Shown one piece after another: positions 4,515-49,330 of a DNA stretch of 64,000 bases. The stretch covers positions 4,979,501 to 5,043,500 of the forward strand of contig NZ_JAPEMC010000001.1 in NCBI RefSeq assembly GCF_026343115.1, given 5' to 3'. Both the position numbers and the translations under genes were made by a program. Numbering within the stretch: position 1 is the first letter of the stretch; each line of letters starts with the position of its first letter. The stretch comes from Streptomyces sp. NBC_00102 (GTDB lineage Bacteria > Actinomycetota > Actinomycetes > Streptomycetales > Streptomycetaceae). Under the pieces are notes generated by a model, which made no database searches, was not told the origin of the DNA, and worked only from the letters and a program-made list of their open reading frames with translations.

Positions 4515-5276
4515 ATGACGGCACGACTGGACAAGAGGACGGCGCTGGTCACCGGCGCGACCAGCAACATCGGACGGGCCATCGCGCTGGCCCTCGGCGC
4601 CGAGGGGGCCCATGTCGTGGTGTCCGGCCGTGACAGCGGGCGCGGTGAGCGGGTGGTGGCCGAGATCCGGGCCGCAGGAGGGAGGGCCGACTTCGTCGCC
4701 GCCGACCTGGACGGCACCGCCGCCGCCTCCCGGTCGCTCGCCGACCGGAGCACCGAGGTGCTCGGCGGCCGGATCGACATCCTGGTGAACAACGCGGGCA
4801 TCTATCCGCCCTCCACCACGACCACCGCCGACGAGGCCACCTTCGACCAGGTGTACGGGGTGAACGTGAAGGCCCCCTTCTTCCTCACCGCTGCCGTGGC
4901 CCCGGCCATGGTGGCGGCCGGCGGCGGCGCCATCGTCAACCTCGGCTCCTGGATCACCCGCCTCGGTGTCGCCTCCAACGCGCTCTACAGCTCCACCAAG
5001 GGCGCCGTCGAGACCCTCACCCGCGCCTGGGCCGCCGAGTTCGGGCCGTCCGGAGTACGGGTCAACGCGGTCTCGCCCGGTGTGGTCCACGAGCCCTCCG
5101 ACGAACCGCTGCCCGGCGACGTGATGATGAACGGCACCCCGGCCGGCACCTACGGCAGGCCCGAGGACATCGCCCGAGCCGTCGTCTACCTGGCGAGCGA
5201 CGACTCCTCCTTCGTGCAAGGCATCGTCCTGGACGTGGACGGCGGCCGGACCTCCACCGCGGTGATCGCGGCCTGA
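4515..5276 (+). CDS. Short-chain dehydrogenase/reductase (classical SDR)
   Basis: 253 residues, the normal length of a classical SDR. The cofactor loop is TGATSNIG (about 12-19), the structural motif is NNAGIYP (about 94-100), and the catalytic residues are Ser in LGSW and Tyr/Lys in YSSTK. A basic residue after the second strand (VVSGRDSGRG) points to NADPH use. The ATG at 4515 follows AAGGAG. It resembles 3-oxoacyl-ACP reductase-like enzymes, but such similarity does not fix the substrate. A TetR gene follows in the same direction, and two related operator-like sites lie upstream, so it is probably an inducible, TetR-controlled oxidoreductase. Confidence 0.9.
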   Translation: MTARLDKRTALVTGATSNIGRAIALALGAEGAHVVVSGRDSGRGERVVAEIRAAGGRADFVAADLDGTAAASRSLADRSTEVLGGRIDILVNNAGIYPPSTTTTADEATFDQVYGVNVKAPFFLTAAVAPAMVAAGGGAIVNLGSWITRLGVASNALYSSTKGAVETLTRAWAAEFGPSGVRVNAVSPGVVHEPSDEPLPGDVMMNGTPAGTYGRPEDIARAVVYLASDDSSFVQGIVLDVDGGRTSTAVIAA

Positions 5277-37718: not shown

Positions 37719-38636
37719 TCATGCGCCCGGGCGGCGCTTCCGGCGGCCGGTGGGCAGCGGGCGGGCCCGGTTCGGATTGATGAGCGGCCCGAGCAGATCT
37801 CCGTACCGCTCCAGCCGCGCGGCCATGTCGCCCGCGAGGAACACCAGCTCCTCCGGGGTGCCGCACCCCTCGATCTCCTCCCAGGTGACGGGGGCGGAAA
37901 CGGCCGGCTCGGGGCGGGCGCGGAGCGTGTAGGGGGTGGCGGTGGTCTTCGCGGCGGCGTTCTGGCTGAAATCGACGAACACCTTCCCCGGGCGCAGCTC
38001 CCGCTTCATCCGGTGGACGACCAGATCCGGCAGCGCCGCCTCGGCCTCGACCGCGAGCGTCTTCGCGTACGCCGTCACCTCGTCGGACGGTGTGGGCTCC
38101 AGGGGGACGAGCAGATGCAGACCTTTGGAGCCGGAGGTCTTCCCGTACGCGAGGAGGCCGTCGGTGGCCAGCCGCTCGCGCAGCCACCCGGCGACCGCGC
38201 AGCACTCGACCACGCTCGCCGGGGCGCCCGGGTCCAGGTCGAAGACCATCCGGTCGGCGACCGCGGGGGTGTCCGCCCGCCACTGCGGGGTGTGGAACTC
38301 GACCATGAGATTGGCCGCCCACATCAGCGTGGCCAGGTCCTGGACCATGACCTGGGCGGCCTCCCGCTCCCCGCGGTGCGGGACGCGCGCCGTACGCACC
38401 CAGGCGGGCGTACCGGGCGGCGGGTTCTTGGAGAAGAAGTGCTGGCCCTCCGCCCCGTCCGGATAGCGAAGGAAGGAGACCGGCCGGTCGTACAGATGGG
38501 CGAGCAGGGCGCCCGCGACCGTGGCGGCGTAGTAGTGCAGCACCTCGCCCTTGGTCGTACCGGTGGCCGGGTACACCACCTTGTCCAGGTTGCTGAGCGC
38601 CAGGCGCCGCCCCTCCACCTCCGTGATCGGCGTCAT
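37719..38636 (-). CDS. LigD-type polymerase domain (non-homologous end joining)
   Basis: 305 residues forming a stand-alone primase-polymerase (LigD-pol) domain. LSNLDKVVYPATGTTKGEVL is the usual start. MVFDLDPG carries the catalytic Asp pair, TSGSKGLHLLVPLEP the nucleotide-binding His region, and RPGKVFVDFSQNAAAKTT the third acidic site. It fills gaps and adds nucleotides at double-strand break ends. No ligase or nuclease domain is fused, so a separate LigD ligase is expected elsewhere in the genome. It is divergent from ku across 173 bases. The start is the ATG at 38634-38636; an upstream ATG would add 48 unlikely residues. Confidence 0.93.
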   Translation of the reverse strand: MTPITEVEGRRLALSNLDKVVYPATGTTKGEVLHYYAATVAGALLAHLYDRPVSFLRYPDGAEGQHFFSKNPPPGTPAWVRTARVPHRGEREAAQVMVQDLATLMWAANLMVEFHTPQWRADTPAVADRMVFDLDPGAPASVVECCAVAGWLRERLATDGLLAYGKTSGSKGLHLLVPLEPTPSDEVTAYAKTLAVEAEAALPDLVVHRMKRELRPGKVFVDFSQNAAAKTTATPYTLRARPEPAVSAPVTWEEIEGCGTPEELVFLAGDMAARLERYGDLLGPLINPNRARPLPTGRRKRRPGA

Positions 38637-38809
38637 ACGATAAGAATCACACGAATCGGATGAAGTGCGCGAAAAGGCCACAAAGGCGGCCTTCGGGTGG
38701 CAGGGCGCCGCCGTCCCGGAAGCCCTCCCGAGAGCCGAGAGCCGCCCTGTACGCCGCCCTGTACGCCGACCCGACCACACCTCGGTGCGGTCGTCGGAAG
38801 GAGTCGAGA

Positions 38810-39943
38810 GTGAGCTCCATGAGGTCCATCTGGAACGGCGCGATCTCGTTCGGGCTGGTCAGCATCCCGGTCAAGCTGATGAACGCCACCGAGAACCACT
38901 CCGTCTCCTTCCGTCAGGTCCACCTCACGGACGGAGGGCGCATCCGCTACCGCAAGGTCTGCGAGGTCGACGAGGAGGAGGTGACCTCCGCCGAGACCGG
39001 CAAGGCGTACGAGGACGCGGACGGCACCCTCATCCCGATCACCGACGAGGACCTCGCCCAGCTCCCGCTCCCCACGAACAAGACGATCGAGATCCTCGGC
39101 TTCGTCCCGTCCTCCCGGATCGACCCGCTCCAGATGGAGACCGCCTACTACCTCTCCGCGAACGGGGGCCCGGCGGCGAAGCCGTACACCCTGCTGCGGG
39201 AGGCGCTCAAGCGCAGCGAGAAGGTGGCCGTCGCCAAGTTCGCGCTGCGCGGGCGCGAACGGCTCGGGATGCTGCGGGTGGCGGAGGACGTGATCGTGAT
39301 GCACGGGCTCCTCTGGCCGGACGAGCTCAGGTCGCCCGAGGACGTCGTGCCGGACACCGGGACCAAGGTGCGCGACGCCGAACTCGATCTGGCCGACGCC
39401 CTGATGGACACCCTCGGCGGGGTGGACCTGGACACCCTCCACGACGACTACCGCGAGGCGGTGGAGGAACTGGTCGCCGCGAAGGCCGCGGGCGAACCGC
39501 TGGAGCCCGCCGCCGAAGCGGAGACCGGCGGCAAGGTCATCGACCTGGTCGCCGCCCTGGAGAAGAGCGTCCGCGCGGCGAAGGAGTCGAGGGCGGACGA
39601 GGAGGGCGGAGGCGAGGAGGCCGGGGAGGGCGGCAAGGTGGCCGACGTCCACCACATCGGCCGGTCCACGCGCCGCACGCCGACCGGCAAGACGGTGTCC
39701 CGCTCGGCCGGCGCGGAATCCGGCAAGTCCCGGCCCAAGGAGACCGGGGCGAAGAAATCCACGGCGGAGAAGTCCACGGCGAAGACCGCGACGAAGAAGA
39801 GCACCGCGACGAAGCCGGCGGCCAGGAAGACCACCGCGAAGAAGGCCACCGCGAAGAAGACCACCGCGAAGAGGTCGACGGCGAAGAAGACCACCGCGCG
39901 CAAGAGCACGTCGGGCGGGCGGAGTTCACGATCGTCCGCCTGA
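38810..39943 (+). CDS. ku: Ku protein, DNA-end binding
   Basis: 377 residues. The Ku core (about 1-260) begins SIWNGAISFGLVSIPVKL and contains GRIRYRKVCEVDEEEV, GFVPSSRIDPL and VIVMHGLLWPDELR, forming the ring that threads onto DNA ends. The last 100 residues are an Ala/Lys/Thr tail with KKTTAKK-type repeats, like histone H1 tails. In actinobacterial Ku such tails bind DNA and recruit partners. The GTG at 38810 has AAGGAG six bases upstream; an ATG four codons in is an alternative. It is divergent from the LigD-polymerase gene, so the two form a repair locus. Confidence 0.95.
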   Translation: MSSMRSIWNGAISFGLVSIPVKLMNATENHSVSFRQVHLTDGGRIRYRKVCEVDEEEVTSAETGKAYEDADGTLIPITDEDLAQLPLPTNKTIEILGFVPSSRIDPLQMETAYYLSANGGPAAKPYTLLREALKRSEKVAVAKFALRGRERLGMLRVAEDVIVMHGLLWPDELRSPEDVVPDTGTKVRDAELDLADALMDTLGGVDLDTLHDDYREAVEELVAAKAAGEPLEPAAEAETGGKVIDLVAALEKSVRAAKESRADEEGGGEEAGEGGKVADVHHIGRSTRRTPTGKTVSRSAGAESGKSRPKETGAKKSTAEKSTAKTATKKSTATKPAARKTTAKKATAKKTTAKRSTAKKTTARKSTSGGRSSRSSA

Positions 39944-43266: not shown

Positions 43267-44574
43267 GTGACCGCACCCGTCACCACATCCGTACACACAT
43301 CCGCGGCGCCCGCCGCCACCCGTCCGGCGCTCGCCGCCACCGATCCCGTGCTCGCCGGGCTGATCGACGCCGAGGAGCGGCTCCAGGCCGACACCCTGCG
43401 GCTCATCCCCAGCGAGAACTACGTTTCGGCCGCCGTCCTCGAAGCATCCGGCACCGTCCTGCAGAACAAGTACTCCGAGGGCTATCCCGGGCGTCGCTAC
43501 TACGAGGGCCAGCAGGTCGTCGATCAGGTCGAGACGCTCGCCGTCGAGCGCGCGAAGGCCGTCTTCGGCATGGAGCACGCCAATGTGCAGCCGTACTCGG
43601 GTTCCCCCGCCAACCTCGCCGTCTACCTGGCATTCTGCGAGCCGGGCGACACCGTCCTCGGGATGAGCCTGCCGATGGGCGGTCACCTCACCCACGGCTG
43701 GGGCGTCTCCGCCACCGGCACCTGGTTCCGTGGGGTCGGTTACGGCGTGCGCCGCGACACCGGCCGGGTCGACCTCGACGAGGTGCGCGACCTGGCCCTC
43801 GCCGAACGCCCGAAGGTCATCTTCTGCGGCGGTACCGCCGTGCCCCGCACCATCGACTTCGCGGGCTTCGCCGAGATCGCCCGCGAGACCGGCGCCGTGC
43901 TCGTCGCCGACATCGCCCACATCGCCGGGCTGATCGCCGGCGGCGCCCACCCCTCGCCGGCGGGGTACGCGGACGTCGTCTCCACCACTACGCACAAGAC
44001 GCTGCGCGGGCCGCGCGGCGCGATGCTGCTCAGCACGGCCGAGCACGCGCGCGCCCTCGACCGGGCGGTCTTCCCGGGTCTCCAGGGCGGGCCGCACAAC
44101 CAGACCACCGCGGCGATCGCGGTCGCGCTCGGCGAGGCCGCGCGCCCCGAGTTCTCCTCCTACGCCCACCAGGTGGTCGCCAACGCCCGCATGCTCGGCG
44201 AAGAACTGGCCGGGCGGGGGTTCGACCTCGTCTCCGGTGGCACCGACAACCACCTCCTCCTGATCGACCTCACCGACAAGGACGTCCCGGGCAAGACCGT
44301 GGCCAAGGCGCTCGACCGTGCGGGCATCGTCGTGAACCACAACTCCGTGCCGTACGACACCCGCAAGCCCTTCGACCCCTCCGGCATCCGCATCGGCACC
44401 CCCGCCCTCACCACACGCGGCGTCCCGGCCTCCGCCATGGCGGACGTGGCCGCCTGGATCGACACCGTGGTCGACGCGGCACGCACCGGCGACGAGGGCG
44501 TGATCGCCAAGGTCCGGTCCGAGGTGAAGGAGTTGATGGACGCCCACCCGGCACCGGGCCTGCCGCTCGCCTGA
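43267..44574 (+). CDS. glyA: Serine hydroxymethyltransferase
   Basis: 435 residues, close to the family length plus a short N-terminal extension. LRLIPSENYVSAAVLEASG is the folate/PLP entrance signature, NKYSEGYPGRRYYEGQQVVD carries the substrate loop, and STTTHKTLRGPRGA holds the PLP lysine. It interconverts serine and glycine and charges tetrahydrofolate with one-carbon units. The GTG at 43267 follows GGGAGAG. The upstream ZTP riboswitch should raise its synthesis when folate is limiting. A second, unregulated glyA may exist elsewhere in the genome. Confidence 0.97.
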   Translation: MTAPVTTSVHTSAAPAATRPALAATDPVLAGLIDAEERLQADTLRLIPSENYVSAAVLEASGTVLQNKYSEGYPGRRYYEGQQVVDQVETLAVERAKAVFGMEHANVQPYSGSPANLAVYLAFCEPGDTVLGMSLPMGGHLTHGWGVSATGTWFRGVGYGVRRDTGRVDLDEVRDLALAERPKVIFCGGTAVPRTIDFAGFAEIARETGAVLVADIAHIAGLIAGGAHPSPAGYADVVSTTTHKTLRGPRGAMLLSTAEHARALDRAVFPGLQGGPHNQTTAAIAVALGEAARPEFSSYAHQVVANARMLGEELAGRGFDLVSGGTDNHLLLIDLTDKDVPGKTVAKALDRAGIVVNHNSVPYDTRKPFDPSGIRIGTPALTTRGVPASAMADVAAWIDTVVDAARTGDEGVIAKVRSEVKELMDAHPAPGLPLA

Positions 44575-44589
44575 CCGCCGATGTCCTGG

Positions 44590-44624
44590 GGCGGTACGGG
44601 TTCCCGAGGGGAGCCCGTACCGCC
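44590..44624 (+). terminator. Terminator after glyA
   Basis: GGCGGTACGGG and CCCGTACCGCC are perfect 11-base arms around a 13-base loop, followed by a short CTTT. Confidence 0.75.
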
Positions 44625-44738
44625 TCGGGCCTTTCAGCGGTCACGGCCGAAAAATCGATACCTTCTCCCGCTTGCCGAAGAACCGTCTCTGCGGCCACTG
44701 TCCAGACAGGCACGAGCCGTCCAGGAAAGAGACACACC

Positions 44739-46052
44739 ATGCACACGAACAACGCCGACGTCGTCGCCGCCCCCGGCACCCCCTCCGGGCACACCGCCGA
44801 CCCCGCCGCACGCTGCCCGTTCCGGCTCGACCCGGAGGGTACGGACATCCAGGGCGAGGCGGCCCGCATCCGCGCGGGCGGACCGGCCACCCGGATCGAA
44901 CTTCCGGAAGGCGTCCCGGCCTGGGCCGTCGCCGACCCGGCCGTCATCACCCGGCTGCTCACCTCCCCGGCCGTCTCCAAGGACGCCGCCCAGCACTGGC
45001 CCGCCTGGATCGACGGCGAGGTCGGGCCCGACTGGTCACTCGCCCTGTGGGTCTCGATACGCAGCATGTTCACGGCGTACGGCCCCGCCCACACCCGGCT
45101 GCGCAAGCTCGTCTCCGGCGCCTTCACCGCCCACCGCACCAAGGCCCTCGCCCCCGTCGTCAGCCGCATCGCCGAGGAACTGCTCGACGAGATCGAGGCG
45201 CTGCCCGAGGGCGAGCCGGTGGACCTGCGCGCCCGGTACGCCGGACCGCTGCCCGCCCGCGTCATCTGCGAGCTGTTCGGCGTACCGCTGGACAGCCGCG
45301 ACCGGCTCTGCACCCTGTTCGACGCCCTGTTCAGCACCGCGACCCCGGCCGATGAGGTACGCGCCCACGCCGGAGAGCTCTACGGAATCCTCCACGGACT
45401 CGTCGCCCTCAAGCGGGAGACCCCCGGCGACGACCTCACCAGCGCCCTGGTCGCCATCCAGCGCGAGGGGCTCGCTTCCGGCGCCCCGGACCCCCTGGAG
45501 GACCAGGAACTCCTCGACACCCTCGTCCACTTCCTGTCGGCCGGGTACGAGACCACCATCAACCTCGTCGACCACGCCGCGCACGCGCTGCTCACCCACC
45601 CCGAGCAGCTCGAACTGATCCGTACCGGCAAGGCCGGATGGGCCGACGCGATCGAGGAGACCCTGCGCTGGGAACCCGCCGCCGCCAACCTCATGCTCCG
45701 GTACGCCGTCGAGGACATCGACCTCGGCGACGTGGTCGTACCGAAGGGCGACGCGATCGTGATGGCCGTCGCCGGCGCGGGCCGCGACCAGGGCGTGCAC
45801 GGACCGGACGCCGACCGGTTCGACCTCACCCGGCCGACCCGCCGCGACCACCTCGCGTTCGGGTACGGCGTCCACCACTGCATCGGAGCGCCCCTGGCCC
45901 GGATGGAGGGCACCACGGCCCTGACCGCGCTCTTCGCCCGGTTCCCCGACCTGGCGCTCGCCGTGCCGTCCTCGTCCCTGCGCCCCGTGAGGTCCTTCAT
46001 CTCCAACGGCCACCAGGAACTCCCCGTCCTGCGGCACGGCCCCGCGGCCTGA
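44739..46052 (+). CDS. Cytochrome P450
   Basis: 437 residues. The bacterial class I pattern is complete: the I-helix AGYETTINLVDHA with Ala-Gly and Thr-Thr, EETLRWEP (ExxR), and the heme loop FGYGVHHCIGAPLAR with the Cys ligand. It is soluble and needs ferredoxin partners from elsewhere. The ATG at 44739 has AGGAAAGAG upstream. It converges with the butyrolactone-synthase gene. In some signalling clusters a P450 hydroxylates the hormone, so a role in shaping the signal is possible but unproven; an unrelated tailoring role is equally compatible. Confidence 0.95.
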   Translation: MHTNNADVVAAPGTPSGHTADPAARCPFRLDPEGTDIQGEAARIRAGGPATRIELPEGVPAWAVADPAVITRLLTSPAVSKDAAQHWPAWIDGEVGPDWSLALWVSIRSMFTAYGPAHTRLRKLVSGAFTAHRTKALAPVVSRIAEELLDEIEALPEGEPVDLRARYAGPLPARVICELFGVPLDSRDRLCTLFDALFSTATPADEVRAHAGELYGILHGLVALKRETPGDDLTSALVAIQREGLASGAPDPLEDQELLDTLVHFLSAGYETTINLVDHAAHALLTHPEQLELIRTGKAGWADAIEETLRWEPAAANLMLRYAVEDIDLGDVVVPKGDAIVMAVAGAGRDQGVHGPDADRFDLTRPTRRDHLAFGYGVHHCIGAPLARMEGTTALTALFARFPDLALAVPSSSLRPVRSFISNGHQELPVLRHGPAA

Positions 46053-46090
46053 CGGCGCGGACACCACCCGCGGCTCCGGGAGACCGGTGG

Positions 46091-46118
46091 CGGACGGACC
46101 GCTGCACGCGGCCGTCCG
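46091..46118. terminator. Hairpin between P450 and the butyrolactone synthase
   Basis: CGGACGG (46091-46097) and CCGTCCG (46112-46118) lie between the convergent genes and can serve both. Confidence 0.55.
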
Positions 46119-46147
46119 GCACAGGCCTCCCGGAACTCAGACGTCCC

Positions 46148-47185
46148 TCACTCCCGTACGCCGACGGGCGCGGCCACTCCCTCCACCACGCTTCGGAACG
46201 CGACCTCCCCGCGCTGCGTCCCGGTCACCTCCACCGCGACCCCGTCCGGGGCGCCGTCCGGAGTCACTTCGCGGGCGTCGATCCAGCACGGCGCGTCGAA
46301 CTCGACGTACCGGGAGGTCCGCATGTCGGTGGTGAGCGGGCGCCACGAACGGACGCCCGCGCCCGCGACGACGGCGTACGCGGCCTGCTGGCTCGCCTCC
46401 ATGATCACGAGCCCCGGCACATGGTCGACCGGGTGGTCCATCAGCGCCGGATTCCCGGTGTCGGCGATCAACTCCCAGCGGTCCGGGCGGTCCGAGACGC
46501 CGAGCACCACCTCGTCCGCCGCGCCCCGCCCGGTCAGTGCCCCGCCGACCGGCGACGGCATGACCCCGGGCCGTGCGGCGAGGAACGGACCACGCAGCCG
46601 CCGGTAGACCCGGTCGGACACCCAGGAGAACCCGGACTCGCTCGTGACGAAGACCCTCCCGCGCTGTTCCAGGGAGATGGCTATGCGCATGCCTCTGCGC
46701 CCCGTCACGGTGCAGACCGCCTCGGCGCGGACCGGCGCCCGGTCGGTCCGGTGGCGGGGGTCGACCGAGTAACGCATGCCGCTCATCAGGAACTGGTACG
46801 CGGAACTGATCCCGAACTCGGTGTGTGCGAGGCTGAGTCCGATCTGTCGCAGTGTCTGCGCGACGAGCATGTGGTGGTGCACACTGCCGAGTGCGGGCTC
46901 GAAGAAGACGTGCCGGCCGGCCCAGTCGACGTCGAGCGTGTACGTGTTCTCGGCGAGCCGGTGATAGCCGCGGATCAGCACGTCGTCCGGCTGGACCCGG
47001 TGGGCGTCCGCCGGGCGGACCGCGGGCGCGTTGCCGGGTACGCCCCTTCCGGGCGCCGGGACCGGGACGGTGGTCTCCGTCCCCGGTGCCGGGACGGCGG
47101 TCTCCGTCCCCGGTGCCGGGACGGTGTTTTCCGTCCCCGGTGCCGGGACGGATGGTGTGTGTTTCTGCTTCACGATGTGGTGCAT
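46148..47185 (-). CDS. AfsA/ScbA-type gamma-butyrolactone biosynthesis protein
   Basis: 345 residues. After a repetitive 45-residue N-terminus with VPAPGTE-type units, two AfsA-type hotdog domains follow (about 55-190 and 215-335). Typical segments are VDWAGRHVFFEPALGSVHHH, FVTSESGFSWVSDRVYRRL, TGNPALMDHPVDHVPGLVIM and YVEFDAPCWID. AfsA joins a beta-ketoacyl chain to dihydroxyacetone phosphate in the first step of making gamma-butyrolactone-type hormones. It starts at an ATG with GGGGGGAG upstream. It is divergent from an ArpA-type receptor, the standard pairing of signal synthase and receptor. No butenolide phosphate reductase lies beside it. Confidence 0.93.
   Translation of the reverse strand: MHHIVKQKHTPSVPAPGTENTVPAPGTETAVPAPGTETTVPVPAPGRGVPGNAPAVRPADAHRVQPDDVLIRGYHRLAENTYTLDVDWAGRHVFFEPALGSVHHHMLVAQTLRQIGLSLAHTEFGISSAYQFLMSGMRYSVDPRHRTDRAPVRAEAVCTVTGRRGMRIAISLEQRGRVFVTSESGFSWVSDRVYRRLRGPFLAARPGVMPSPVGGALTGRGAADEVVLGVSDRPDRWELIADTGNPALMDHPVDHVPGLVIMEASQQAAYAVVAGAGVRSWRPLTTDMRTSRYVEFDAPCWIDAREVTPDGAPDGVAVEVTGTQRGEVAFRSVVEGVAAPVGVRE
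47072..47152 (-). repeat. Three 27-base tandem repeats in the AfsA-type gene
   Basis: Units at 47072-47098, 47099-47125 and 47126-47152 are nearly identical and encode VPAPGTETA-type nonapeptides. Being a multiple of three bases, copy changes keep the frame. Confidence 0.85.
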
Positions 47186-47359
47186 GTGCTCCCCCCAGGG
47201 ATGAATGCGCACGTGATCGGTGGTGTTCGAGTGCGAATACGGAGCGATCCGCCGGGCCCCAAAAGGTCCGGCGGCCAAGGCCGTTGAGGGCGGGGAGCGC
47301 GGCCCGACGCAGGGCCGCCGGCGCCGCCTCAACTGGAGGCCGCCGCGAAGGGTGCCATA

Positions 47360-47383
47360 GAATACGGACCAGCCGGTTTCTTG
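47360..47383. promoter_or_regulatory. ARE-like operator of the butyrolactone receptor
   Basis: GAATACGGACCAGCCGGTTT followed by CTTG matches the autoregulatory-element consensus well (A-W-A-C, two bases, A-C-Y, three bases, C-G-G-T-T-T). It lies 57 bases before the receptor gene. ArpA/ScbR-type proteins bind such sites to repress their own gene and often the synthase gene. A second copy of the left half, GAATACGGA, occurs at about 47235-47243, closer to the synthase gene. Confidence 0.75.
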
Positions 47384-47439
47384 AGGGGAACGTGCCGGAG
47401 ACACTGAGCCCCGTCAGGCGCATCGTCAGGAGATCTCGA

Positions 47440-48147
47440 ATGGCACGGCAGGAGCGCGCGATCAGGACGCGCAACGCAGTACTGACGGCCGCCGCAGCGG
47501 TCTTCGCCGAGCGCGGCTACGAAGCCGCGACGATCCAGGAGATCCTGGAACGGGCCGCGGTGACCAAGGGGGCGCTCTACTTCCACTTCCCCTCCAAGGA
47601 GGATCTGGCGCGAGGCGTCCTGGACCACGCGGTGACCGAGCCGCCGCCCGAACAGCCCCTGAAGCTGCAGTCCTTCGTGGACATGGGGCTGATCCTCGCG
47701 CACCGGCTCCCGAGAGAGCCACTGTTGCGGGGCGCCGCGCGGATTGCCGCCGATCAGAGCAACCAGCGGTTCTTCGGCAAGCCGTGGCACGACTGGGTCC
47801 AGCTGACGAGTCAGCAGATCGTCGCGGCCCAAGGGCAGGGCGAGGTGCTGCCGCACGTCGATCCCGAGCGGACCGCCCAGACGATGGTCGGCTCCTTCAC
47901 CGGCATTCAGCTGATGTCCCAAGCGGCCACCGAGATGGCCGATTTCGAGGAGCGCATCTCCCTCCTCTACGACCTGGTGCTGCCCAGCATCGCGGTGCCC
48001 GGCGTCCTCGGCCGCCTCGACACCCGGCCCGAGCGCGGCGCCCGCGCCTTCGCGGAGGCCCGCGCCGCCGCCGGGGACCACACCCCCGCGGACCCGGGGC
48101 AGCCGGAAACCTTCGGTGCCGACCGGCCCGCCGTGCGCACGGCCTGA
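47440..48147 (+). CDS. ArpA/ScbR-type gamma-butyrolactone receptor (TetR family)
   Basis: 235 residues. The N-terminal TetR domain reads MARQERAIRTRNAVLTAAAA, ERGYEAATIQEILERAAVTK and GALYFHFPSKEDLA, the exact style of butyrolactone receptors. The ligand domain (about 75-200) contains RFFGKPWHDWVQLT with the conserved Trp that closes over the lactone. It should repress target genes until the hormone binds. The ATG at 47440 follows AGGAG. Divergent from the AfsA-type synthase, with an ARE-like site in its promoter; it likely controls both and perhaps distant antibiotic genes. True receptors and pseudo-receptors can be hard to tell apart; its basic pI and synthase neighbour favour a true receptor. 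Confidence 0.92.
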   Translation: MARQERAIRTRNAVLTAAAAVFAERGYEAATIQEILERAAVTKGALYFHFPSKEDLARGVLDHAVTEPPPEQPLKLQSFVDMGLILAHRLPREPLLRGAARIAADQSNQRFFGKPWHDWVQLTSQQIVAAQGQGEVLPHVDPERTAQTMVGSFTGIQLMSQAATEMADFEERISLLYDLVLPSIAVPGVLGRLDTRPERGARAFAEARAAAGDHTPADPGQPETFGADRPAVRTA

Positions 48148-48315: not shown

Positions 48316-48573
48316 ATGACCGACCGCAGGCCGGAAGGCCCCGCGTACACCGGCGCCTCGGGAAGCCCGCCGCCGGTGCCCGCCGACATGCCCGACCAGC
48401 AGGTGCAGGAGGGCGAGGACGCGCTGGACGTCCCCCCGCCGCCCTGGGCGGAGCAGGAGACCGAGGCAGGCTCCGACGGCGCCGACCCCGACGAGGCCGG
48501 CGCGGGCGCACACACCGCCCGCAACGCGGGCGTCCACCCGGAGCACCCGACCCCGGACGAGTCCACGGGCTGA
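48316..48573 (+). CDS. Small acidic hypothetical protein
   Basis: 85 residues, very rich in Pro, Glu, Asp and Ala and probably disordered. No domain or signal peptide is seen. The ATG at 48316 has CGGAGA upstream and codon use is normal. It follows the receptor gene by 168 bases in the same direction. Function unknown. Confidence 0.6.
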   Translation: MTDRRPEGPAYTGASGSPPPVPADMPDQQVQEGEDALDVPPPPWAEQETEAGSDGADPDEAGAGAHTARNAGVHPEHPTPDESTG

Positions 48574-48713: not shown

Positions 48714-49144
48714 TTGGCATCGATCAAGACGTTCCACGTCACCTTCGACTGCGCGGAACCCGAGCGCGTCGCCCGCTTCTGATGCGCGGTGCTCGGGTAC
48801 GTCGTACCGCCGCCGGAGGGGTACGCCACCTGGGGCGACTACGACCGCTCGCTGCCGCCCGAGCGCCGGGGAGCCGCCTTCGTCCGCACCGATCCCACCG
48901 GCGAGGGGCCGTGGCTGTACTTCCAGCGGGTTCCCGAGGGCCGTTCGTCAAGAACAGGGTCCATCTCGACGTACGGGCCGGCACGGGCCTCGTGGGTGAC
49001 GAGCGCCTGGCCGTACTCGCAGCGGAGTGCGCCCGGCTGGTCGCGCTCGGCGCGGTGTGCGTGCGGGTTGTGCGCGCCGACGGCTTCGACGAGTCCTGCA
49101 TCGCGAGGCAGTACATCGAGGGCAACGAGTTCTGTCTCGACTGA
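48714..49144 (+). pseudogene. Decayed VOC/glyoxalase-family gene
   Basis: A TTG start at 48714 with GGAGG opens LASIKTFHVTFDCAEPERVA, the usual start of this VOC subfamily. After RF a TGA (48780-48782) stands where relatives have TGG (Trp). The same frame goes on with LGYVVPPPEGYATWGDYDRS, LPPERRGAAF and YFQRVPEG. At about 48943-48950 one base is missing, and the next frame continues with VKNRVHLDVRAGTGLVGDER, SCIARQYIEGNEFCLD and the stop at 49142-49144. Two separate lesions make a true pseudogene more likely than error. The intact protein would be a small metalloenzyme or resistance-type binding protein. Confidence 0.88.
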
Positions 49145-49240: not shown

Positions 49241-49258
49241 AGACCCTCTGTCCGGAAG

Positions 49259-49330
49259 TGCCCCCGGCAGGATTCGAACCTGCGCACCCGGCTCCGGAGG
49301 CCGATGCTCTATCCCCTGAGCTACGGGGGC
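49259..49330 (-). tRNA. tRNA-Arg (anticodon CCG)
   Basis: 72 bases without CCA. Acceptor GCCCCCG pairs with CGGGGGC; the D arm has GCTC and GAGC; the anticodon stem TCGGC/GCCGG holds the loop CTCCGGA with anticodon CCG; the T arm is GCAGG-TTCGAAT-CCTGC; the discriminator base is A. All stems are intact. It reads CGG codons. It is a single tRNA with its own terminator. Confidence 0.97.

Follow-up and report, generated by a model that had tools for sequence, protein, structure and literature searches.

A putative self-regulating lactone hormone locus in Streptomyces sp. NBC_00102 with an AfsA-type synthase, a CYP154-like P450 and a ScbR-type receptor

The window analysed here, 64,000 nucleotides of the soil bacterium Streptomyces sp. 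NBC_00102 (contig NZ_JAPEMC010000001.1, positions 4,979,501 to 5,043,500, forward strand), contains a triad of genes that probably forms a self-regulating hormone locus: a synthase would make a lactone, a cytochrome P450 would oxidise its side chain and a receptor would act at an autoregulatory element (ARE), with the reductive steps encoded elsewhere. AfsA-family synthases condense a beta-ketoacyl thioester with a three-carbon unit to give a butenolide-type lactone, and, judged by its family, the window synthase would do the same. We propose that the P450 oxidises the alkyl side chain of this hormone, by analogy with SrrO and the Streptomyces rochei hormone SRB. The ScbR-type receptor, on the ARE at 47360-47381, would repress both the synthase gene and its own and be released by the oxidised lactone, and its equivalent of residue Thr131 of the receptor AvaR1 would read the oxygen added by the P450. 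Keto and ring reductions, if needed, would fall to a short-chain dehydrogenase/reductase (SDR) and a QOR-family (quinone-oxidoreductase-like) enzyme, which are encoded beside a second receptor on another contig, C3, of the same genome.

The triad comprises the P450 gene (44739-46052, + strand), the synthase gene (46148-47185, - strand) and the receptor gene (47440-48147, + strand). The P450 and synthase genes are convergent, with 95 bp between them, and the synthase and receptor genes are divergent, just as a preliminary description of this DNA had placed and oriented them. The P450 scores 99 bits with Pfam p450 (cut-off 22.8), carries the heme, I-helix and ExxR motifs, and has CYP154A1 (1odo, E 7.5e-122) as its best solved relative. 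The synthase matches Pfam AfsA with 83.5 bits (cut-off 24) and the NCBIfam ScbA/BarX family NF041195 with 251.6 bits (cut-off 200). The receptor matches the NCBIfam ScbR family NF041196 with 211.2 bits (cut-off 150), and AvaR1 is its best solved relative. It has the conserved ligand tryptophan, Trp127, and an isoelectric point of 5.89; this tryptophan and an acidic-to-neutral isoelectric point are described as marks of genuine receptors in PMC7347384 and PMC7480387.

Oxidation of the hormone, in the manner of SrrO, is the most likely function of the P450, because all synthase-linked sequences in a tree of CYP154-like P450s, the SrrO-type protein included, fell into one group. This tree had 137 rows, and a single 30-row group (support 95) held the window P450 and the SrrO-type P450; it took in all 27 rows with an AfsA gene within 6 kb, two with AfsA at 7.2 kb and one without, while none of the remaining 107 rows had AfsA in the compared stretch. 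L102 (short) and L195 (duplicate) had been removed from the tree (L numbers label loci, G numbers genomes); SRRO_L142 and L103, which are the same plasmid locus, were both counted, L200, L201 and L202 had been chosen for their adjoining AfsA, and some contigs were short. Of the 55 matches ranking next after the window, 54 made up the other P450 loci compared (G102:C707 was left out), and 19 of these had AfsA within 6 kb. Since AfsA was sought near P450s with two queries at >90 bits, very distant AfsAs could be missed. Under a mixture model with 80 rows, a 22-row subset containing the window was well supported (starred, support 96). When 22 synthase-linked rows were held together against 28 others in a 50-row test, the result lay 6.3 log units above the free search (p-AU, the approximately unbiased p-value, 0.64); this test does not reject a synthase-linked P450 group.

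Among the matches listed from 295 genomes of the genus, no P450 except the window's own exceeded 60% identity. A later search with a synthase profile (392 genomes, 40 loci taken) yielded two further triads, L284 and L286, and with them the closest P450 relatives found (91% and 64% identity, respectively), both of which adjoin a synthase. L284 lies in a sister species at the same genomic place as the window triad, and in L286 the synthase has, in addition, a QOR-family gene at a distance of about 1 kb. The preliminary description had named as damaging the case that orthologues of the P450 mostly occur without the synthase; in the genomes searched this was not so, with L284 and L286 linked and the wider group synthase-linked. 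Gene orientation varies among the synthase-linked P450 loci; the linkage therefore outlives rearrangement. A two-stage oxidation of SRB at C-6' is reported for SrrO (PMC7564063), and by that precedent the window P450 is best read as a side-chain oxidase. A part for the P450 in hormone synthesis, as proposed in the preliminary description, thus probably holds, given that its closest relatives stand beside a synthase and that its group includes the SrrO type.

The receptor provides a second argument. In the account of PMC7347384, Thr131 of AvaR1 hydrogen-bonds the C10 hydroxyl of avenolide, and residue alignment places Thr123 of the window receptor (codon 47806-47808, + strand) at this position. 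We compared positions 64 and 131 (AvaR1 numbering) in the best-scoring receptor within 4.5 kb at each of 87 loci, a sample enriched for Gln types by the synthase profile search. The count at position 131 was restricted to the 80 loci with 2.5 kb or more on each side, which left out, for their short flanks, L193 and L197 (Gly) and L287 (Thr, with the contig ending on the P450 side), and also L311 (Ser), L305 and L288 (Val) and L318 (Cys). Residue 131 was polar at every one of the 27 loci where a CYP154 lay within 5 kb (Asn 16, Ser 6, Thr 5) and at 3 of the 51 loci without a P450, all three of one clade (L259, L263, L269); at two loci whose P450 is of another family, the residue was Val and Gly. 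This difference speaks for a part of the P450 in the hormone pathway. Tested against the presence of any P450, Fisher's p was 9.6e-16, but the rows are related. On a receptor tree built without the columns for 64 and 131, the contrasts on starred branches agreed in nearly all pairings. The most interesting contrast sets the window, L284 and L286 (Thr, P450) against L183 and L184 (Val/Ile, no P450). The receptors of L313 and L317, nested among SrrA-type receptors, have no P450 and Leu/Met at 131, a possible case of P450 loss with a change of ligand.

Between the synthase and receptor genes lies a predicted ARE operator (47360-47381, unstranded), 58 bp before the receptor start. It was found with a palindromic matrix; the training set was 25 synthase/receptor intergenic regions from loci other than that in the window. 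Its score of 22.5 bits is the highest in the whole 64 kb, followed by 14.0 and then 8.6; the best sites of the training regions spanned scores of 5.9 to 24.8, which shows a poor fit of the matrix to some of these regions. L284, the orthologous locus of the sister species, has exactly the same 22-mer. As a sequence match, then, the ARE-like site of the preliminary description is borne out. The 14.0-bit site lies inside the synthase gene (46305-46326), and L284 has a similar site of 12.8 bits.

The synthase belongs to a Q-type subfamily of AfsA/ScbA-type proteins with a predicted tandem hotdog fold, and an E-x-x-R-Q motif occurs in both AfsA halves. In the N-domain motif Gln110 (codon 46856-46858, - strand) replaces the Glu found in 43 of 53 homologues, with Arg113 kept; in the C-domain motif Glu263 is kept and Gln266 (codon 46388-46390, - strand) replaces the Arg found in 34 of 53. 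A predicted model of low confidence (mean pLDDT, the model's own confidence score, 63) resembles acyl-ACP/CoA thioesterases, and in it both motifs would sit on two central helices of the fold; a PDB search with the synthase profile gave no matches. No synthase exceeded 49% identity among the matches listed from the 295 genomes. Gln-type synthases form one clade (support 96) and recur in the genus (L254-L293, with L183, L184, L193 and L197), and 17 of the 44 Gln-type loci examined have a QOR-family gene no more than 5 kb away. The 5' part of the window gene contains a 27-bp tandem repeat of 3.5 copies (47062-47156). The synthase of the sister species has a different N-terminus at this repeat, and over 39 aligned N-terminal codons the ratio of nonsynonymous to synonymous substitution rates (dN/dS) is about 1.2.

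The receptor residue at position 64 varies together with the N-domain residue of the synthase. PMC7347384 describes Gln64 of AvaR1 as lying by the lactone and as conserved among lactone receptors; the window receptor has Ala64 instead (codon 47629-47631, + strand). Written as synthase residue/receptor residue, the pairs at the 87 loci were Q/A 41, E/Q 40 and E/H 2, with Q/T, A/A, R/A and E/unread once each, so that two states, Gln synthase with Ala receptor and Glu with Gln, cover 81 of 87. In an earlier set scored on the divergent receptor, the pairs were Q/A 10, E/Q 31, E/H 2 and E/A 2; the two E/A cases come from the divergent genes of L139 and L118, loci that also have a second receptor, with Gln64. 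This coupling represents one contrast on starred branches and three on the best tree, and since the Gln type is nearly one clade it is close to a single event. Both residue couplings appear to be new, with few independent events behind them: neither had an earlier description in the literature searched, which consisted mostly of open-access papers.

Several points weigh against the proposed pathway. The synthase lacks the Glu and the Arg at the positions of Gln110 and Gln266, which we take to be E78 and R243 of ScbA, reportedly essential there. Between the window and the sister species, dN/dS was 0.10 for the receptor, 0.18 for glyA, 0.29 for the P450 and 0.50 for the AfsA gene; all are below 1, but the last two exceed the control pairs (P450 0.12-0.27, eight pairs; AfsA 0.15-0.41, nine pairs). 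The window synthase and P450 thus show somewhat faster evolution than the controls, and this would be compatible with a weakened synthase. In the mixture model (80 rows) the branch with all synthase-linked P450s had a support of 39 and included the unlinked L145 and L198. L193 and L197, which have a CYP154 of the linked group at 7.2 kb, carry Gly at receptor position 131. The coupling at this position amounts to two independent contrasts on starred branches and seven on the best tree, numbers too small to reach significance. Identity to the SrrO-type protein is only 51% for the window P450, and CYP154 enzymes are described with varied substrates, steroids and terpenoids for example. Finally, disruption of srrO in S. 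rochei is reported to leave antibiotic production unchanged (PMC7564063), so the oxidation need not be essential and may tune rather than enable signalling.

The preliminary description had considered the usual reductase to be missing, and at the locus itself this holds. A tblastn search of the 64 kb with SrrG, SrrP, SrrH, both QOR-family proteins and a reductase from the P450/synthase gap of other loci gave no match at the locus; in the window as a whole SrrP, SrrH (E 1e-5) and the QOR proteins had no match, and the sole match was an SDR of 37-40% identity at 4536-5246, 40 kb away. A reductase is present in SRB-type and sfb-type loci and in the sister-group loci L143 and L034, where an NAD(P)-binding reductase stands between P450 and synthase; L146, with the layout of the window, has no gap reductase and none of the other reductases searched. 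A move of the reductase out of this gap was also considered and rejected: no moved copy was found, the closest protein in the genome being just 38% identical. For the genome as a whole the claim is not supported. Contig C3 carries an SrrG-like SDR (63%), a second receptor (57% to the window receptor, with Ala64 and Ile131) and a QOR-family gene (62% identical to its L183 counterpart), together with an ARE-like site before the receptor (L217; C3:56266-57936 and onward). This site, at 16.8 bits, is the best of 19.9 kb, and no synthase was seen in the L217 stretch. The sister species keeps the C3 set (94, 95 and 89% protein identity) as well as the triad. A genome-wide search found no SrrP match, which, coming without a positive control, shows little. 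L183 and L184, which have the closest synthases among the matches listed from the 295 genomes, have these same types of SDR and QOR next to their synthase and receptor genes. We therefore propose that the pathway may be split over two loci, with the C3 enzymes supplying the reductions.

There is, however, a considerable chance, if less than an even one, that the C3 set serves an unrelated signal and has no part in the window pathway. It lies on another contig and has its own ARE-like site, and the window offers no QOR match and just the distant SDR. The arrangement in L183 and L184 speaks against such independence, as does L286, where P450, synthase, receptor and QOR-family gene stand together, and so does the persistence of both halves in the sister species.

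If the two gene sets do cooperate, one synthase might serve two hormones and two receptors, with residue-based classes across the genus; we regard this joint reading as speculative and rather unlikely. Part of the lactone from the window synthase would pass to the C3 SDR and QOR-family enzyme, and the reduced lactone would be recognised by the C3 receptor (Ala64, Ile131); another part would go to the window P450 for oxidation, to be recognised by the window receptor (Ala64, Thr131). The window synthase is the only Gln-type AfsA found in the genome; of the two AfsA matches, the other (C3:256 kb) is distant (30%), of the Glu type and has its own receptor. More widely, Gln-type synthases and Ala64 receptors would mark a separate lactone class, and residue 131 would tell whether the ligand carries an oxygen made by a P450.

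Unlikely, to a slightly greater degree, is that the P450 is a bystander, a CYP154 that acts on some other metabolite and converges with the synthase gene by chance. Such enzymes are common in the genus (217 of 295 genomes have a CYP154-like match at E 1e-100), 110 of the 137 tree rows lack AfsA within 6 kb, and with the ARE matrix no operator was found near the P450 start, the best score being 1.6 bits at 44678. On the other side, the sfb4 promoter of S. filipinensis is likewise described without an ARE (PMC7480387). Chance convergence also fits poorly with the grouping of the synthase-linked P450s with the SrrO type, with a linkage that persists though gene orientation differs among loci, and with a receptor position 131 that tracks the presence of a P450.

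It is still less probable that the synthase is catalytically weakened and that the locus mainly listens to a hormone made by others or by another pathway. The two glutamines and the raised dN/dS would suit such a loss. Yet the N-domain Gln is kept in 42 of 87 loci, a divergent receptor lies within 4.5 kb in 42 of the 45 loci of the Gln-type search set, dN/dS remains below 1, and the two-domain fold is predicted, albeit with low confidence. The preliminary description had offered a furan as one possibility; a ligand of that kind, of the methylenomycin type, is very improbable: the window receptor lacks Gln64, like the furan receptor MmfR, and has Leu at the position of AvaR1 His130, as reported for MmfR, but it retains Thr162 (numbered 161 or 162 in PMC7347384), described as absent from MmfR, which makes a furan less likely than a lactone, it keeps Thr131 and a small residue at 85, both positions reportedly bulkier in MmfR (PMC7347384), and MmfR is far more distant from it (100.5 bits, against 192.7 for AvaR1).

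The triad occupies a variable genomic slot. On its left, glyA ends at 44574 and is followed, before the P450 gene, by a 21-bp hairpin, a probable terminator (44585-44629, + strand; fold -53.1 kcal/mol, z -5.35), which was not listed by a consensus terminator scan because it has no T-rich tail. The right edge is a tRNA-Arg(ccg) gene (49258-49330, - strand). In three relatives without the triad (glyA 82-84% identical) the order glyA, tRNA-Arg(ccg), nrtL is kept with unrelated genes in the gap, where P450, AfsA and receptor had no match; at the thresholds used, nrtL was matched in 18 and glyA in 23 of the 61 genomes searched, the window's own included. A glyA-P450 operon was rejected on these grounds, the hairpin and the unrelated genes in the slot. 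The combination with glyA, which the preliminary description did not recognise, we take to carry no functional message; glyA is an incidental neighbour. A consensus promoter scan found nothing, a result that is uninformative at this G+C content. The interval from receptor to tRNA contains only a small reading frame (about 48317-48573, + strand), whose start is identical in L284, and a decayed VOC-family gene (48716-49144, + strand; family assigned by eye) interrupted by an in-frame stop and a change of frame. Further to the left, genes of the LigD polymerase and Ku end-joining types (37722-39943) are also present in L284.

The type of hormone is described as hard to predict from AfsA sequence homology (PMC12301235), and receptor sequence similarity is said not to separate hormone classes (PMC7347384). 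The unusual synthase and receptor residues of the window recur jointly in its relatives, and hormone type may thus be readable from sequence. The two paired signs, synthase Glu/Gln with receptor Gln64/Ala64 and a polar residue 131 where a CYP154 is close by, allow such prediction to be tested directly; if they hold, hormone class would be predictable from a few residues. A tractable case is at hand in the two species in which both gene sets are retained at separate places.

The combination of AfsA and P450 has been published before (PMC7480387, PMC7564063), and by analogy with the SRB system of S. rochei the locus would work through the same parts: synthase, side-chain P450, receptor and operator. 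We read that system (srrX, srrO, srrA, srrG, srrP, srrH) from the same gene order on the S. griseofuscus plasmid pSGRIFU1. Both have an AfsA-type synthase, a CYP154-like P450 and a ScbR-type receptor together, with identities of 55% for the receptor and 34% for the synthase beside the 51% of the P450. Unlike the window locus, the SRB system has srrG, srrP and srrH nearby, and its Glu/Arg synthase and Gln64 receptor differ from the Gln/Gln synthase and Ala64 receptor found here; on account of these differences the window locus is not a plain SRB member. The sfb cluster of S. filipinensis (SfbA, the P450 Sfb4, the epimerase-like Sfb5 and SfbR) also brings synthase, P450 and receptor together but, judged by the description in PMC7480387 and not by its sequences, has a local epimerase-like reductase, a pseudo-receptor and another gene order. 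In avenolide-type systems (aco, cyp17 and avaR1 of S. avermitilis, orf16*/orf18* of S. fradiae, and snbU) a P450 likewise adjoins the receptor, and AvaR1 is the closest solved relative of the window receptor; S. avermitilis and S. fradiae are described as using an acyl-CoA oxidase in place of AfsA (PMC7554373, PMC7480387), for which reason the comparison with Cyp17 drawn in the preliminary description is looser. No acyl-CoA oxidase appeared among the matches listed for 12 distinct proteins in a search confined to the neighbourhood of the locus. Among the matches listed from the 295 genomes, the closest loci without a P450 are L183 and L184 (genomes G030 and G157), which share with the window a Gln-type synthase (46-47%) and an Ala64 receptor (60-62%) and differ from it in having an SDR and a QOR-family gene beside the synthase, no P450 within 5 kb, and Val/Ile at receptor position 131.

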